A DNA stretch of 64,000 bases from Lysobacter gummosus (GTDB lineage Bacteria; Pseudomonadota; Gammaproteobacteria; Xanthomonadales; Xanthomonadaceae), in contig NZ_CP011131.1 of assembly GCF_001442805.1 (NCBI RefSeq), positions 4,278,001 to 4,342,000 on the forward strand, given 5' to 3'. This document shows, piece after piece, positions 38,753 through 45,945 of this stretch (position 1 is its first letter; each line of letters opens with the position of its first letter). Position numbers and translations under genes: made by a program. The notes under the pieces were generated by a model. That model did not search any database. It was not told the DNA's origin and worked only from the letters and a program-made list of their open reading frames with translations.

Positions 38753-39263
38753 CGCCACATGCTACCGGAGCCCGACCGGCAGCGGCCCCGCAAGCCGCCT
38801 GTCCGGGGTTCGAGGCCTCTCGGCCGGGCCGGAATCGCGCCCACGCCGCGAGCCCGCATCCAATGTGCTTGGAACCGCCATTTCGCGCTGCGTCTTCATC
38901 GCTGACGCGTGCTGCATCGCAATATCGAATGTGCTTACAGATAGCCGCGGGCGATTACGCAAACCAGTAAACCGACAGGACACGCAAGCCGCATTCACCC
39001 CCGCGGCGATCACAGATTTGTGAATAAAACCGACGTTGCGTCACCGAATCCGCCGAATCGGCGGCGATGAAATAAGTCGTGCGCAGGCTCGGTTGCGGCG
39101 CGCAAAACCGCGTGCTAACCACGGCTTGGGTACATCGCGGTTTATGCCGTCCCTCGCGCCGGCCGCCGCCGCGATGCGCTCCGTCTTCGCTCGCCGCGTT
39201 CATCGCGACGGTCGCCGGCGCTGTTTCACACATGATGAGTTCACTCAACCAAGGAATGTTTTC
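38753..39263. other. Upstream region of the small-peptide gene
   Basis: About 510 bp without a credible gene. Contains an inverted repeat TCACA-N4-TGTGA (39010-39023) and lower-GC patches around 38920-38960 and 39020-39070. The SD AAGGA of the peptide gene lies at the right end. Confidence 0.55.
39010..39023. promoter_or_regulatory. Inverted repeat TCACA-GATT-TGTGA upstream of the peptide gene
   Basis: Perfect 5-bp arms about 245 bp upstream of ATG 39264. The half-sites are oriented opposite to the CRP/Clp consensus, so a Clp role is not claimed; it may still be an operator. Confidence 0.3.
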
Positions 39264-39365
39264 ATGAAGAAGATTTCGATCCTCAAAGTGCAGAAGCTGA
39301 AGACCACCTCCGTTGCCGCGTATCCGATCTGGGTCTGCCTGCCGTTCCCCTGGCCGCGCTTCTGA
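39264..39365 (+). CDS. 33-residue peptide, candidate precursor of a modified or processed peptide
   Basis: ATG 39264 has an excellent SD (AAGGA, 8 nt spacing). The N-terminal half is a basic leader-like stretch (MKKISILKVQKLKTTS); the C-terminal half is hydrophobic and aromatic/proline-rich, AYPIWVCLPFPWPRF, with one Cys, two Trp, two Phe before the last residues and four Pro. Too short for routine gene calling. It lies 242 bp upstream of a membrane M50-type peptidase with a PqqD-like domain and a TPR protein, the typical arrangement of a precursor and its maturation genes. No homologue is known to me. Antisense or shadow origin is unlikely given the SD and composition unlike the neighbours. 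Product and modifications are inferred. Confidence 0.7.
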   Translation: MKKISILKVQKLKTTSVAAYPIWVCLPFPWPRF

Positions 39366-39539
39366 CCTGAGCCGGGCGCCCGGCCACGGCGGTTCCGCCG
39401 TAGCGGGCGCACTGTCTTGAACTCCGCCAGGGATGGGCGGACATCCCCTCCTTCCTAGCGCATCGCGTCGGCCGCCGTTTCGCGGCTGCATGCGCGGCGC
39501 GCGCCCCTGGACAGCTCTCGACAGCCACCAGATGTGGTT

Positions 39540-39567
39540 GCGGGCCGGCGTTCGTTCGCCGGCCCGC
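39540..39567 (+). other. Strong hairpin between peptide gene and M50 peptidase gene
   Basis: GCGGGCCGGCG (39540-39550), 6-nt loop TTCGTT, CGCCGGCCCGC (39557-39567): 11 perfect base pairs, no U-tract. It could act as a partial terminator, an attenuator or an mRNA stabiliser, giving more peptide than enzyme. Two weaker GC palindromes lie closer to the peptide stop (about 39371-39385 and 39388-39402). Confidence 0.6.
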
Positions 39568-39607
39568 TTACGCCCATCGCAACGACCGTCCCATCGAGCA
39601 TCCCGCA

Positions 39608-40807
39608 ATGCCAAAGCACGACGAGCAGACGTACTTCGTCATTCCGCTATCGGTTCAGCCCGAAGGCGATGGCTATTACATCGGCAACGCCGAGCTCAAC
39701 GAGTTCTACGAGTTCCCCGAAGACGGTCTGCGCATCATCCAGATGCTGCGCAAGGGCGACAGCGCCGAGCAGATCAAGGCCGCGCTGGCCGCGCAGTCCG
39801 ACGAAACCCTGGACGTTGACGACTTCATCGAGCAGCTCGTCGAAATCGGCTTCATCCATCGCCAGCAGGATCAACACCGCTACGACGAACAGTTGGCCGA
39901 ATCGACCGCCGGCGACAAGCGTCTTTCGTTCAAGGGCAACCTGGCATTGGCGCGCGCGCTGTTCTCGCCGCTGTCGCTGGCGATCTACCTGGGCGTGATC
40001 GGCTATGCCGCCCTCAGCGCGTATCAGGACCCGCGCCTGCGCCTGAATCTGCAGGCGTTCTATCTCGAACAACACCTGACCCTGACCCTGGTCACGCTGC
40101 TGGTGCTGTACTTCCTCGCCACCATGCTGCACGAACTGGGCCACATGATGGCCGCGGCGCGCTACGGCGTGCATTCGCGGCTGGGCATCGGCAATCGCCT
40201 GTGGGATCTGGTCGCCGAAGCCGACCTGACCGGCATCCTGTCTCTGCCGCGCTCGCAGCGCTATCTGCCGCTGATGGCCGGCATGATGGTGGACGTGCTC
40301 AACATCGCCTTGCTGACGCTCGCCATCGGCTGGTTGATCGATCACAGCGGCAACGCCTTCCTGATCCAGCTGCTGCAAGCGCTGATCCTGCAGCTGCTGA
40401 TCACGATCTCGTGGCAATTCAATATTTTCCTGCGCACCGACATGTACTACGTCGTGTGCAATTTCTTCGGCAATCCGGACCTGGACCGGCAGGCGCGGAT
40501 CTATCTGCGCGACCGCATGCACCGGATCAGCTTCGGGCGTTTCGGCGAAGCCGCCGAAGCGATCGATCACCGCAACATCGGCGTGCTGCGCGCGTTCTCG
40601 CTGCTATGGGTGATCGGGCGGATTTCCGCGCTGATATTCCTCGCCTTCGTGCTGATCCCGACACTCTCGCGCTACGTGCGCAAGGCCTACGACAGTTTCG
40701 CCAGCCCGCAGGCGACCCAGGCCACCGCGATGGACGCCGCCGGCTTCGCCGCGATCTCGGTGGCCCTGTTCGCCGGCGGCATGTATCTGTGGCTGCGCCG
40801 GCGCTGA
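39608..40807 (+). CDS. Membrane M50-type peptide zinc metalloprotease with N-terminal PqqD-like domain
   Basis: 399 residues. N-terminus (about 8-85) looks like a PqqD/RRE winged-helix domain: LNEFYEFPEDGLRIIQMLRK, DSAEQIKAALAAQ, LDVDDFIEQLVEIGFIH. Membrane part (about 118-400) has several helices; zinc motif HELGH (175-179) and NIFLRTDMYYVVCNFFGNPD, matching the N-x4-x-D-G/M-YY motif of YydH-like peptide zinc metalloproteases (third ligand Asp278). RRE domains bind leader peptides, so the upstream 33-mer is the natural substrate candidate. It would act in the inner membrane, perhaps cutting the leader during export. No radical-SAM or ABC-exporter partner is adjacent. Confidence 0.85.
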   Translation: MPKHDEQTYFVIPLSVQPEGDGYYIGNAELNEFYEFPEDGLRIIQMLRKGDSAEQIKAALAAQSDETLDVDDFIEQLVEIGFIHRQQDQHRYDEQLAESTAGDKRLSFKGNLALARALFSPLSLAIYLGVIGYAALSAYQDPRLRLNLQAFYLEQHLTLTLVTLLVLYFLATMLHELGHMMAAARYGVHSRLGIGNRLWDLVAEADLTGILSLPRSQRYLPLMAGMMVDVLNIALLTLAIGWLIDHSGNAFLIQLLQALILQLLITISWQFNIFLRTDMYYVVCNFFGNPDLDRQARIYLRDRMHRISFGRFGEAAEAIDHRNIGVLRAFSLLWVIGRISALIFLAFVLIPTLSRYVRKAYDSFASPQATQATAMDAAGFAAISVALFAGGMYLWLRRR

Positions 40808-40861
40808 AGGCGCCCGGCGCAGCCGCTCATTTCACCGACCCGAATGCATAAGGAGATTGCA

Positions 40862-42736
40862 ATGAACCTCGCCGTCGGCGACACCGGACTGCAGCGGCTG
40901 CTCCGACTCCATCCGGCCAACGCCGGCCCCGCCGCCGCGAACCCGGCGCGGGTGCTGGAGATCGACGCCGACTTCGCCCGCGACGGCACCTGGGCCGGCG
41001 CGCGCGAACTGGCCGAGCGCGCTTACCTCGAACTGCTGGAACACGGCCGCGAGGATCTGATCGACGCGCACAACGCCGAACTGCACATGGCCTTGCCGCT
41101 GCATCGCGAGCGCATACCGCTCAAGTACGCCTGCCTGACCGATACCGCACGCGACGCCGAGCGCACGCGCAATTTCCCGCTCGATCGCGCCTATCGCCTG
41201 GTCCACGGCCTGGTCGGCCTGGTGCTGGACTGGAAGCAGGCGGTCGCGCCGGGCGAGTCGTGGCTGGTGCTGGTACGCCAGTACGACCACGCCCAGCATT
41301 TGGCGACGCGCTTGTTCGCCGAACTGGCCCGGCGCGCGGCGCGGCGCGGCGAAATCGCGGTGATCATCGACAGCGCGCTCGATCACGCCGAACTGGGTCG
41401 GCGCGCGCCTGGCTTACAAACCTCGCTCGCGAGCGATGAGCTGCGCGCACGTCCGGCGCCGTCGCGCGCCGGCGCGCCGGGCGAAGCCGAAGGCGCCGCG
41501 CTCGAAGCCGAACTCGCCCGCGGCGGCGCGCTGGACTGGGAAATCAACGCGCCGCGCCTGCTGGCGCACCACCTCAGCCGCGGCGAATCGCTGGCGGCGG
41601 CGCAGGTCGCGCTGCGCGCGCTGTGCCTGTGCAATCACTACGGCTACTACCACGAGTCGGCCAGCTTCGCCGACACCGTGCTGCCGCATTTCGACGAGAT
41701 GGTCGGCGACGACGAAGACGCGCGCTGGAACTACCTGGGCAATATTTTCCAGGGCATGGTCACCACCGACGCCGAAGTGCGCGCGCTGCGCCTGATCCTG
41801 GATCTGGCCGAGCCCCGGCTGACCCGGCGCGAGCTGCGGGCGAAGATGCATTACCTGCTGTCGATGATCTACCTGCGCTATTCGAAAAAGCCCGATCTGG
41901 CACTGGCCGAGCACTACATCCTGCTCGCCGCCGCCGACATCGACGCCGCCCGCGGCGAAATCCCCGATGCCGATCAGACTTTCCTCAAGGTGTTCATCGA
42001 CAACGGCCTGGCCTTCCTGCGCGTGCGCCAGGGCCGGCCGCAGGACGCGCTGGCGCTGTGCCAGGAGGGTTACGCCCTGCTCACGCGCGAACTCGGCGAA
42101 GATCGCCACACCCTGCATCGCTCGGTGCTGCAGTACAACACCGCGCAGGTCTACGTGATGCTCGACCGCACCGAAGACGCGCTGGTGCATTACCGCAAGT
42201 CGATCGAGATGGACCCGTACTACTCCGAGTACTACAACGAAAGCGCCAACATCCTGCAGCGCGAAGAGCGCTTTGAGGAAGCGCTGGAGCTGTACGAATC
42301 GGCCGCGCGCTACAGCGCGCCGTATCCGGAGGTGCATTTCAATCGCGGCGTCTGCCATTCGCGCCTGAGCGAATGGGAGCAGGCGCTGGCGTTCTTCGAA
42401 CTGAGCCTGGAACTCAATCCGGCGCAGCCGGAGATCCATGTGCTGCGCGCGGAAATCCACGAGGAACTCGACGACGCCGAGCGCGCGCTGGCCGATTACG
42501 ACGCGGCGATCGCGCTTGCGGCCGATTCGGTGCCGGCGCGGGTCAACCGCGCGGTGATGCATTTCGGTCGCGGCCGTTACGATCTGGCGCTGTCGGACAT
42601 GGATCACGTGATCGCGATCGATGGCGGACAGGCCGGTCATTACGAGAACCGTGCCGAGATCCACAAGGCCATGCGTCAGGACGAGTTGTACCGGCTCGAT
42701 CTCGATCGCGCCGAGGCCTGTCGCGAAACGGCTTGA
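40862..42736 (+). CDS. TPR protein linked to the M50/peptide cassette
   Basis: 624 residues from ATG 40862, with AGGAG. The C-terminal half (about 290-620) has at least five tetratricopeptide repeats: NTAQVYVMLDRTEDALVHYR, NESANILQREERFEEALELY, NRGVCHSRLSEWEQALAFFE, LRAEIHEELDDAERALADYD, NRAVMHFGRGRYDLALSDMD. The N-terminal about 200 residues (WLVLVRQYDHAQHLATRLFA, EIAVIIDSALDHAELG) match nothing recognised; they may be a degenerate nucleotide-binding domain, without a clear P-loop. 54 bp after the peptidase gene, same strand, so probably one operon. Likely a scaffold or adaptor. No signal peptide. Confidence 0.8.
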   Translation: MNLAVGDTGLQRLLRLHPANAGPAAANPARVLEIDADFARDGTWAGARELAERAYLELLEHGREDLIDAHNAELHMALPLHRERIPLKYACLTDTARDAERTRNFPLDRAYRLVHGLVGLVLDWKQAVAPGESWLVLVRQYDHAQHLATRLFAELARRAARRGEIAVIIDSALDHAELGRRAPGLQTSLASDELRARPAPSRAGAPGEAEGAALEAELARGGALDWEINAPRLLAHHLSRGESLAAAQVALRALCLCNHYGYYHESASFADTVLPHFDEMVGDDEDARWNYLGNIFQGMVTTDAEVRALRLILDLAEPRLTRRELRAKMHYLLSMIYLRYSKKPDLALAEHYILLAAADIDAARGEIPDADQTFLKVFIDNGLAFLRVRQGRPQDALALCQEGYALLTRELGEDRHTLHRSVLQYNTAQVYVMLDRTEDALVHYRKSIEMDPYYSEYYNESANILQREERFEEALELYESAARYSAPYPEVHFNRGVCHSRLSEWEQALAFFELSLELNPAQPEIHVLRAEIHEELDDAERALADYDAAIALAADSVPARVNRAVMHFGRGRYDLALSDMDHVIAIDGGQAGHYENRAEIHKAMRQDELYRLDLDRAEACRETA

Positions 42737-43259: not shown

Positions 43260-44867
43260 ATGTCGAAGCAGTCGAACCAGAAACCGTCCGCGGCCTCGCG
43301 CCGCCTGATGCCGGCGCTCGCCGCGCTGAGTCTCGCCCTCGCCGCGCCGGCCGCGGTCGGCGGCGAATCGGCGATCTTCGGCGGAGGCCCGTTCTATTCC
43401 GGCGGCCAGACCGTCATCAACGACCTGCGCGATTCGGGCTTCACCACAGTGTTCCTGTGGAGCATCCACATCGAGGACAACGGCGACCTGGTCTACAACG
43501 ACATCCCGGTGGTCAAGAACGGCGCCTACGCCGGCGCCGACGCCGATTGGCCGGCGCGACTGGCCTCGCTGAAGACCGCGCCGACCTCGGTCAAGCGCGT
43601 GGAAGTCTCGATCGGCGCCTGGGGCGTACCCGACTTCGAGCGCATGGCCAAACTGGCCAACGGCACCGCCGCCGGCTGCGGCACCACCATCGTCTGCGGT
43701 ACCGGCAGCACCAGCATCCTGTACCGCAATTTCCAGGCGCTGAAGACCGCCACCGGCGCCGACGCGGTCAACTTCGACGACGAGAGCCATTACAACGTCG
43801 CCGACACCACCACCTTCGGCCAGATGCTGGTCGGGCTGGGCTACAAGATCACCTTCGCGCCGTACACCAATCAATCGTTCTGGAAGGGCGTCAAGGACAA
43901 CCTGGGTAGCTCGGTCGATCGCATCTACCTGCAGGTGTACGACGGCGGCGCCGGCAACGATCCGGCGAACTGGAATACCGCGATGGGCATGACCGTCATG
44001 CCCGGCCTGTGGACCAAGCACGGCAGCGGCTGCACCTCGGGCGACAGCCCCTCGCAGGTGCAGACGCGCATGGCCGGCTGGAAGACCAGCGCCGGCATCA
44101 GCGGCGGTTTCCTGTGGTTGTACGACGACATCCAGAAGTGCTGGGCGCAGGGCACCACCGCGCAATACGCTTCCGCGATCAATGCCGCCGTCAGCGGCAA
44201 CACTCCGCCGGTGGCGAACTTCGGCGTCAGCATCAGCGGCCTGACCGCGAACTTCAGCGATTCCTCCAGCGATGCCGACGGCAGCATCGCTTCGCGCAGC
44301 TGGAATTTCGGCGACAGCGGCACCTCCACCGCGACCAATCCCAGTCACGCCTATGCCAGCGCCGGCAACTACACCGTCACCCTCACCGTGACCGATAACG
44401 GCGGCGCCACCAACACCAAGACCTCGACCGTGTCGGTCGGCGCGGGCAACGTCAACCTCGCGCTCAACAAACCGACCACGAGTTCGACCGCGTGCAACAG
44501 CAACGAATCGGGGGCCAAGGCGGTCAACGGCAGCGTCTCGGGCGGCAACACGGACAAGTTCTGTTCGTTGACCTCGCCGTCGTGGCTGCAGGTCGATCTG
44601 GGCTCGGCGCAGACCGTCAGCAGCTTCACCGTCAAGCACGCCGGCGCGGGCGGCGAATCGGCGACGTGGAACAGCAAGGCTTTCACCATCCAGACTTCGA
44701 GCAACGGCACGTCCTGGAGCACGCCGGTGACGATCACCAACAACACCGGCAATTCCTCCACGCACTCGATCACGGCGACTTCGGCGCGGTACGTGAAGCT
44801 CAATGTGACTACGCCTACGCAGAACACGGATCCGGCTACTCGGATTTATGAGTTCGAGGTCAGGTGA
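43260..44867 (+). CDS. Secreted GH18-like glycosidase with PKD and F5/8-type carbohydrate-binding domains
   Basis: 535 residues from ATG 43260. Signal peptide about 1-34 (SAASRRLMPALAALSLALAA). Catalytic-like domain (about 36-310): IFGGGPFYSGGQTVINDLRD, VEVSIGAWG, and GADAVNFDDESHYN (166-179), resembling the D-x-x-D-x-D-x-E active-site strand of GH18 TIM barrels in altered form; SGGFLWLYDD is the last strand. PKD domain about 315-393 (SWNFGDSGTSTATNPSHAYA). F5/8 type C (CBM32-like) about 398-535 (NLALNKPTTSS, WLQVDLGSAQTV, YEFEVR). Probably acts on chitin- or peptidoglycan-like glycans outside the cell; substrate is inferred. A terminator follows at 44937-44978. Confidence 0.78.
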   Translation: MSKQSNQKPSAASRRLMPALAALSLALAAPAAVGGESAIFGGGPFYSGGQTVINDLRDSGFTTVFLWSIHIEDNGDLVYNDIPVVKNGAYAGADADWPARLASLKTAPTSVKRVEVSIGAWGVPDFERMAKLANGTAAGCGTTIVCGTGSTSILYRNFQALKTATGADAVNFDDESHYNVADTTTFGQMLVGLGYKITFAPYTNQSFWKGVKDNLGSSVDRIYLQVYDGGAGNDPANWNTAMGMTVMPGLWTKHGSGCTSGDSPSQVQTRMAGWKTSAGISGGFLWLYDDIQKCWAQGTTAQYASAINAAVSGNTPPVANFGVSISGLTANFSDSSSDADGSIASRSWNFGDSGTSTATNPSHAYASAGNYTVTLTVTDNGGATNTKTSTVSVGAGNVNLALNKPTTSSTACNSNESGAKAVNGSVSGGNTDKFCSLTSPSWLQVDLGSAQTVSSFTVKHAGAGGESATWNSKAFTIQTSSNGTSWSTPVTITNNTGNSSTHSITATSARYVKLNVTTPTQNTDPATRIYEFEVR

Positions 44868-44936
44868 GTGGTGTGAGGGGGATCTGATCGGCGCTAGGGC
44901 GCCGGTTTTGGGGTTGGGGTGTGAGGGGAGATCGGG

Positions 44937-44978
44937 GCCACCGTCATGCAACGCATGGCGGTGGCTTTTTTGTTTTGG
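44937..44978 (+). terminator. Rho-independent terminator of the GH18-like gene
   Basis: GCCACCGTCATGC pairs with GCATGGCGGTGGC (one mismatch), followed by TTTTTTGTTTTGG, about 70 nt after the stop. Confidence 0.8.
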
Positions 44979-45008
44979 CCTGGATGCGCCATAGAATCCG
45001 CCGCCGCC

Positions 45009-45077
<69 letters not shown>

Positions 45078-45124
45078 AAGATTTTGCTTCGCTTCGCCTT
45101 TGTTTTTGTAGTTGCTGGGCGTCG

Positions 45125-45353
45125 CTAGTAACTCGCGAGACCAGGGACACCCGGAGGGCGGCGCACATGGACGTGCGCCGGGTGCCACCTTGGGCAGGAT
45201 GCCCAATGTGGCACCTGCCTGCGCAAGCACCGTACTCGTGGCTTTTGACTCGAAACAGCCCAAAGCCCTTTCTTTGGTTACTTTCTTTGTGGCTTTGGAC
45301 AAAGAAAGTGACCCGCCGCTCCATGGCGGAAGCTTTAAGCGTTAGATCTTGCT
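45125..45353 (+). repeat. Left arm of large inverted repeat
   Basis: About 228 bp nearly identical in reverse complement to 45568-45794. Inside the arm are hairpins: GGCGCACATGGACGTGCGCC (about 45160), GCCAC-TTGGGCA with TGCCCAA-GTGGC (about 45184-45212), and ACTTTCTTTG with CAAAGAAAGT (45280-45309). Looks like a structured mobile or RNA-like repeat element, not a gene. Confidence 0.88.
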
Positions 45354-45392
45354 CTCGCCCTTGCTCTCGCTCTCGCTCTCGCTCTCGCTTGA
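45354..45392. repeat. Hexanucleotide tandem repeat (CTCTCG)
   Basis: About six units at the inner end of the left arm. Confidence 0.85.
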
Positions 45393-45409
45393 GGCTTCTG
45401 CTTTTTGCT

Positions 45410-45494
45410 CGTCATTCCCGCGAACGCGGGAATCCAGTGCCTTTCGTGCGAGAACGCTTGAAGTCGCTGGATTCCCGCGTTCGCGGGAATGACG
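45410..45494. repeat. REP-like palindromic repeat (family A) in the loop
   Basis: CGTCATTCCCGCGAACGCGG ... GCGTTCGCGGGAATGACG. A short-form copy lying between the two inverted arms. Confidence 0.85.
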
Positions 45495-45567
45495 GTAGGA
45501 GGGAGTGCGCAGATCTGGTTGTTTCGATCAAGGACATCAGGTTCCTTAGAAGCCTTAGAAGCCACAA

Positions 45568-45794
45568 GCAAGATCAAACGCTAAACGCTTCCGCCATAAA
45601 GCGGCGGGTCACTTTCTTTGTCCAAAGCGACAAAGAAAGTAACCAAAGAAAACGCATTGGCTGTTTCGAGTCAAAAGCCACGAGTACGGTGCTTGCGCAG
45701 GCAGGTGCCACATTGGGCATCCTGCCCAAGGTGACACCCGGCGCACGTCCATGTGCGCCGCCCTCCGGGTGTCCCTGGTCTCGCGAGTTACTAG
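45568..45794 (-). repeat. Right arm of large inverted repeat
   Basis: Reverse complement of the left arm with a handful of differences (for example CTTT/CCAT before GGCGGAAGC), which excludes a simple assembly fold-back artefact. Confidence 0.88.
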
Positions 45795-45837
45795 CTGCGC
45801 CAAGCCAGAGCTGAAGCAAAGACGAAGCAAATCACGG

Positions 45838-45945
45838 CAACAGCAACAGCAGCAAAAACAGCAAAAACTACAACTACAACTACAACTAACACTACAACAG
45901 CGACAGCGACAGCGACAGCAACAGCAACAGCAACAGGAAGATAAC
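45838..45945. repeat. Mixed hexanucleotide tract (CAACAG, CAACTA, CGACAG)
   Basis: Period-6 repeats running from the outer end of the right arm almost to the ahpD terminator, with changes of unit along the tract. Confidence 0.9.

Follow-up and report, generated by a model that had tools for sequence, protein, structure and literature searches.

A candidate minimal peptide-processing operon in Lysobacter gummosus: a short precursor peptide, an RRE-M50 metallopeptidase and a degenerate STAND/TPR protein

Introduction

What is made by a locus in which a gene of only 33 codons precedes the genes of a membrane metallopeptidase and of a tetratricopeptide repeat (TPR) protein? Such a locus lies in a stretch of 64,000 nucleotides of Lysobacter gummosus (contig NZ_CP011131.1), which is called the window in the following. 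A preliminary description of this DNA had proposed a new peptide-maturation system, in which the 33-residue peptide is the substrate of an M50 protein carrying a RiPP recognition element (RRE; RiPP, ribosomally synthesized and post-translationally modified peptide). The comparison with related loci presented here makes it rather probable that the three genes form a minimal peptide-processing operon, with RRE-guided intramembrane release of a short peptide rich in Cys, Pro and aromatic residues and with a pseudo-STAND (signal transduction ATPase with numerous domains)/TPR protein as partner. The comparison shows a conserved set of genes, a peptide with leader/core pattern, RRE-like and M50-like folds of the protease and an AAA_16-like ancestry of the front domain of the TPR protein, whereas leader binding, cleavage, release and the role of the partner are inferred.

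Results and Discussion

Conservation of the precursor peptide

Related loci were retrieved by a search with the M50 protein, not with the peptide, and their upstream regions were inspected afterwards. A conserved small open reading frame (ORF) before M50/TPR homologues had been named beforehand as a point on which the proposal could fail, and a peptide of the same family was indeed found upstream of the M50 gene, in the same orientation, at all eight fetched Proteobacterial loci with the full M50 and TPR pair (the window, L011 to L016 and L048). In L011 and L012 the peptide occurs twice in tandem, and both copies have a Shine-Dalgarno (SD)-like sequence. With an AAGGA motif 8 nt before its ATG and copies at related loci, the 33-codon ORF is confirmed as real.

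The peptide consists of a conserved leader of about codons 1–19 (MKKISILKVQKLKTTSVAA) and a variable core of about codons 20–33 (YPIWVCLPFPWPRF), the boundary between the two being approximate. The leader is basic and has the conserved form MKKIS..KVQKLKTT. The core is short, variable and rich in aromatic residues and proline, and a Cys-x-Pro motif is kept in it in all ten Proteobacterial copies while the surrounding residues vary. A ribosomal precursor with a conserved leader and a variable core, as is characteristic of RiPPs, is accordingly encoded at these loci. The copy of L013 reads MKKISILKVQKLKTTSVAAYPIWFCLPWPRL, and that of L014 has the same leader followed by AAYPIWLCLPWWPQL. Further copies are MKKISVVKVQKLKTTAVAMYPICRCFPDFPGCPVIDR in L015, MKKISAIKVQKLKTTAVAMYPIFACWPFPL as one of the two in L011, and MKKISIIKVQKLKTTAVALYPIYECWPW in L048; L016, with an M50 identity of only 29%, has the divergent peptide MKKFAIREVETVKTTAALYECRACFPDWFCDWIDMAA. 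On a Streptomyces plasmid (L024), an ORF ending in MRKISVRRTEPIKVTSAPFSHQPAIVPV stands ahead of a relative of the M50 protein and of a TPR protein, whose TPR part is 29% identical. This locus was kept apart from the eight, as its peptide is only loosely similar, its annotated start lies further upstream and no clear SD sequence stands before the inner one.

The conservation is also visible at the level of DNA. Over codons 1–22, the window is identical at 62 of 66 positions to both L013 and L014, and the four differences to each are synonymous, with no amino-acid change. The remainder of the ORF is identical at 25/36 positions (L013) and 24/36 (L014), the stretch from −100 to −16 at 32/85 and 34/85, and the sequence that separates the ORF from the M50 gene at 140/242 and 143/242, respectively. 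Synonymous and amino-acid changes in codons 1–22 numbered 10 and 4 against L011, 6 and 3 against L048, and 3 and 4 against L015. A pattern of purifying selection in the leader codons is thus clear in some of these pairs, not in all of them.

A search of 395 genomes of the family with the M50 protein gave matches in ten (E ≤ 0.001), five of which had a TPR match next to a long M50 match. The other five matches (L006 to L010) were weaker, had no TPR match on the fetched stretches of ~3.5 kb and were set aside before counting. The peptide query matched six of the 395 genomes (E ≤ 0.01). Its four strong matches (E 2e-18 to 8e-8) lie in four of the five genomes with the full pair, and a divergent copy in the fifth, G204, was found by reading its ORFs. 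For the two weak matches, in G030 and G167 (E ~0.004), the stretch that was fetched matched neither M50 nor TPR; one of the two is a different frame over a gene read as uvrC-like, and both were likewise set aside before counting. In these counts, peptide and pair co-occur more often than by chance. Conservation and co-occurrence together support the view, put forward earlier from adjacency and composition, that the 33-mer is a substrate of the M50 protein.

The RRE-M50 metallopeptidase

A second point on which the proposal could fail was the N-terminus of the M50 protein, which had been likened to PqqD/RRE domains. An RRE-like fold, that is, a PqqD-like winged helix, was found for residues 7–85. 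The protein also has an M50-like fold, with the HExxH motif in a membrane helix and the distal Asp that are typical of M50/site-2 proteases. In an alignment of 31 homologues, chosen from 120 listed of 172 found, H175, E176, H179, T277 and D278 are invariant in all 31, so that both elements of the earlier assignment, HELGH and Asp278, stand. The latter is a candidate third zinc ligand of the site-2-protease type, as in the family at large.

The daptide MpaP/DapP model NF041824 was the closest named model for 17 of the 31 homologues (E ≤ 0.001), with the window protein reaching 29.1 bits against a cut-off of 300, and the YydH/LiaK model NF058609 was matched by only two of the 31 at the same threshold. 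No second match to the M50 gene was obtained in the genome of the window (E ≤ 0.001).

The TPR protein and its N-terminal domain

The structure model of the TPR protein is confident (predicted local distance difference test, pLDDT, 92), and its C-terminal part is an ordinary TPR superhelix according to fold searches. The preliminary description was right in naming a TPR protein; its view of the N-terminal domain as unrecognised has to be revised by way of wider relatives. For the window copy itself, this domain gave no meaningful Pfam match and no match to the AAA_16 profile. None of 11 N-terminal pieces matched that profile either, sequence searches of the PDB with the N-terminus gave nothing, and no AAA fold was among the listed fold matches, which were filled by TPR proteins. 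The protein of L016 carries a longer version of the domain, and a search with this region yielded 73 proteins including itself, with the consensus ivEA.rG.aRr.wle ... GGpWAG ... ERVRSYPvDRAYRLlHGLIDLL ... lvlvCDdFD. AAA_16 was matched by 13 of 32 wider relatives scanned (E ≤ 0.01, best 2.2e-6), and a Walker A motif GxxxxGK[ST] was absent from the first 80 residues in all 73 relatives, two of which begin later than that. Because of these AAA_16 matches and the absence of Walker A, we read the front of the TPR protein as a STAND-type ATPase domain of AAA_16-like ancestry in which the nucleotide site has been lost, the window copy being tied to the wider relatives by a shared alignment. As to features of RRNPP regulators, a TPR domain is present, no helix-turn-helix (HTH) was found by Pfam, and Rap/NprR chains occur among the many TPR folds that match.

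The degenerate-STAND/TPR family itself is broad (L016, P0241 to P0313), with named members in Tahibacter, Thermoanaerobaculia, Acidobacteriota and Stigmatella.

Proposed mechanism and alternative explanations

In the proposed mechanism, the N-terminal RRE domain of the M50 protein would bind the basic leader, and the membrane-embedded zinc centre of the site-2 type would cut between leader and core. A peptide of ~9–18 residues would thereby be set free in the membrane or on its far side, and an exporter gene would for this reason be dispensable. The peptide would have its dedicated cytoplasmic partner in the degenerate STAND/TPR protein, more likely a sensor/regulator or delivery scaffold than a modifying enzyme, and we lean towards a signalling peptide. 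Precedents for the single steps are given in earlier studies: daptide MpaP for RRE-dependent leader removal (PMC10036551), the proposal for EpeP for exporter-free release (PMC10885120), actinobacterial systems for a precursor coupled to a metallopeptidase and a STAND/TPR protein (PMC7159879), and SHP/Rgg for the sensing of an Eep-matured peptide by a TPR protein (PMC7564271).

A more far-reaching version, which we regard as tentative and doubtful, would make these loci a new class of Gram-negative peptide communication: an RRE-guided intramembrane protease would mature and release an unmodified, Cys-containing short peptide with neither ABC exporter nor tailoring enzyme, a STAND/TPR protein without nucleotide site would act as cytoplasmic receptor or gatekeeper, and this three-part logic would extend from Proteobacteria to Streptomyces.

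It is unlikely, though worth weighing, that the peptide is a full RiPP, with an enzyme from another place in the genome modifying the core (e.g., its conserved Cys or its aromatic residues) before the M50 protein releases it. RREs are typical of RiPP enzymes (PMC7470986), the persistence of Cys-x-Pro among varying neighbours would fit a modified residue, and both YcaO and SPASM genes are present in the genome of the window. Against this stands that no modifying enzyme common to the eight loci was found: when the locus proteins were grouped, only the M50 and TPR proteins recurred at 8/8 loci, and one more group, from seven loci, mixed alternative frames over the M50/TPR genes with two small downstream ORFs. 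Radical-SAM, YcaO, lanthionine and exporter genes were found neither in the two family-searched flanking genes of the window nor in 14 flanking ORFs, out of many more, that were family-searched across five relatives. The earlier statement that no such gene is adjacent holds to this extent, the remainder of the window having been inspected as ORF lists only. YcaO occurs in six of the eight carrier genomes and SPASM also in six. As their absences fall in different genomes, neither can be a universal trans-acting partner, provided that the assemblies are complete enough.

An antagonistic peptide, i.e., a small bacteriocin or an epipeptide-like membrane peptide, for which the TPR protein would provide self-protection or act as regulator, appears improbable. 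The M50-processed EpeX is an antimicrobial (PMC10885120), the cores diverge among species while the leader does not, and the distribution is patchy (three of 20 genomes of the genus). Yet no immunity-type membrane protein is common to the loci, no PADLOC model was matched, and several cores would have only ~9 residues and little charge.

Between precursor and M50 gene lies a hairpin with one match in the window and none in 100 shuffles, which is common to three Lysobacter genomes by alignment. For this region the window had a folding z of −5.7 and L013 one of −4.3, and a comparable signal was absent in L011 (−1.0) and L012 (−0.5), the comparison covering these four loci. The hairpin is a possible expression attenuator and may keep the precursor in excess over the protease. 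The first hairpin 3′ of the stop codon had a z of only −1.7, a scan for terminators and promoters gave nothing above shuffles, and Rfam yielded no match. That the small ORF is an attenuator or translation-arrest peptide controlling the M50 gene, rather than a substrate, is very improbable: it does lie 242 nt ahead of that gene with the strong hairpin between and is rich in Pro and Trp beside its stop codon, but its N-terminal half is conserved while the residues beside the stop vary, the reverse of the pattern in arrest peptides, tandem copies with SD-like sequences occur in L011 and L012, where the hairpin signal is missing, and the downstream enzyme bears a leader-binding type of domain.

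Comparison with known systems

The processing operon proposed here was compared with described systems. The nearest are the daptides, whose MpaP is an RRE-dependent intramembrane peptidase with the RRE fused N-terminally to a site-2 protease, and whose short precursor genes are often several (PMC10036551). The RRE-site-2-protease fusion is therefore not new in itself; this and the N-terminal domain of the TPR protein are the two points on which the preliminary description, whose interpretation is otherwise supported, has to be corrected. The present precursors lack the ELExMEAP motif and C-terminal Thr given for daptides (PMC10036551); the window core ends in PRF, and none of the 11 listed copies ends in Thr. 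Moreover, a TPR partner is present here, and the daptide set of oxidative decarboxylase, aminotransferase and methyltransferase is neither common to the eight loci nor encoded by the 14 flanking ORFs that were searched; the sole adjacent methyltransferase gene in the window is prmC, which lies on the opposite strand. In epipeptide systems, the M50 membrane protease EpeP/YydH (NF058609) processes a short peptide and may export it as well, and is proposed to release it without an exporter (PMC10885120). Unlike there, an RRE domain is present here, and a radical-SAM epimerase gene as in YydFGHIJ is neither common to the eight loci nor present among those 14 flanking ORFs. As the tested membership features of both were not found, the system is set apart from daptides and epipeptides.

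The actinobacterial peptide-processing systems likewise combine a small precursor, of the FxSxx type, with a metallopeptidase and an AP-ATPase/TPR (STAND-type) protein, the peptide being proposed as toxin or signal (PMC7159879). Their protease is zincin-like instead of RRE-M50 and their precursors differ (PMC7159879); the STAND-like domain here has no Walker A, and no vWA/MoxR genes are common to the loci. SHP/Rgg pheromones matured by Eep share the short hydrophobic peptide, the transmembrane zinc metalloprotease and the cytoplasmic TPR protein (PMC7564271); the present system differs in its STAND-like front, the lack of an HTH by Pfam, its RRE and its Proteobacterial host. TMcins are also peptides made in the membrane by a site-2-protease-like enzyme; however, this enzyme, TmcP, belongs to PF11667/DUF3267, and a transmembrane helix is part of the precursor (PMC13252029, preprint), in contrast to the RRE-M50 protease and short core here.

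Each part is consequently known in kind. A description of the three-gene combination was not recognised among the papers that searches of an open-licence library listed, relative to which the combination appears new. If the proposed reading is true, a widespread gene set makes a previously undescribed family of small peptides by leader recognition and membrane cleavage alone. The biology of RiPP leaders would then be connected with that of peptide pheromones, and there would be a possible role for STAND/TPR proteins without nucleotide site. With three genes, the system would be small enough for rebuilding in a laboratory strain.

Gene layout, distribution and neighbouring genes

The three genes run in the same direction (Table 1). 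A longer ORF for the TPR protein begins at 40844. The ATG at 40862 is most likely the start, because it is preceded by AAGGAG and because the resulting N-terminus, MNLAVGDT, is also that of a close homologue.

Table 1. Features of the locus (positions in the window)
Feature	Position	Strand	Remarks
Precursor peptide gene	39264-39365	+	33 codons plus stop; MKKISILKVQKLKTTSVAAYPIWVCLPFPWPRF
Precursor ribosome-binding site AAGGA	39251-39255	+	8 nt ahead of ATG; sequence
Precursor-M50 intergenic hairpin	39540-39567	+	perfect 11-bp GC stem
RRE-M50 intramembrane metallopeptidase gene	39608-40807	+	399 aa
RRE (PqqD-like) domain of M50 protein	39626-39862	+	residues 7-85
HELGH zinc motif of M50 protein	40130-40144	+	residues 175-179
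Asp278, candidate third zinc ligand of M50 protein	40439-40441	+	invariant in aligned homologues
TPR gene ribosome-binding site AAGGAG	40850-40855	+	sequence
TPR protein gene	40862-42736	+	624 aa; STAND/AAA_16-like ~12-200, TPR superhelix ~240-624

Beyond the genus, the system was seen in three of 247 genomes, a set made up of a Pseudoduganella genome and its relatives, and, in a phylum sample, in one of 398 genomes, the window's own. In the protein database, 8000 candidates were scored for either protein, which gave at least 172 M50 clusters and at least 275 TPR clusters; the named members are from Lysobacter, Sphingomonas (by record names), Duganella and Pseudoalteromonas. The best named match of the TPR protein is 98% identical, which places the host close to Lysobacter gummosus. 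As indirect support for linkage on contigs, at least 40 of the 120 M50 clusters listed have a longest contig of the same length as that of a listed TPR cluster. Plasmids yielded 27 records, mostly from Streptomyces, with 25–34% identity among the 20 matches listed, and a plasmid search with the N-terminus of the TPR protein gave no match. Of viral contigs, 46 stretches fit a pattern, with no relative among them.

Related M50 genes also occur in other surroundings. In L022, L023 and L025 (Nonomuraea, Streptomyces) they directly follow a ThiF-type adenylyltransferase gene near a BTAD/AfsR-type regulator, have no TPR partner, and no peptide beginning with M[KR]K[IFLVY] was found there; these loci are possibly a second peptide system. 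Downstream of the TPR gene, L011 (11038-13824) and L048 (3491-5758) carry a peptidase S46 gene, possibly a trimming peptidase of this lineage. In L011, a SnoaL-like gene overlaps the TPR stop codon and lies between the TPR and S46 genes, and L012 has ORFs like both in size and place, the SnoaL-like one being similar also by sequence.

Local synteny around the locus is common to three Lysobacter genomes. According to family searches, the locus is flanked in the window at its 5′ side by a prmC-type methyltransferase gene on the opposite strand and at its 3′ side by the gene of a protein with PKD and F5/8-type (F5_F8) domains. The latter (43260-44867), syntenic in the three Lysobacter genomes, encodes a probable secreted protein, whose N-terminal part has no Pfam match. 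It is followed by an intergenic region (~44900-45900) of low-complexity short repeats, with runs of Ala, Arg, Gly and Gln in the ORF translations.

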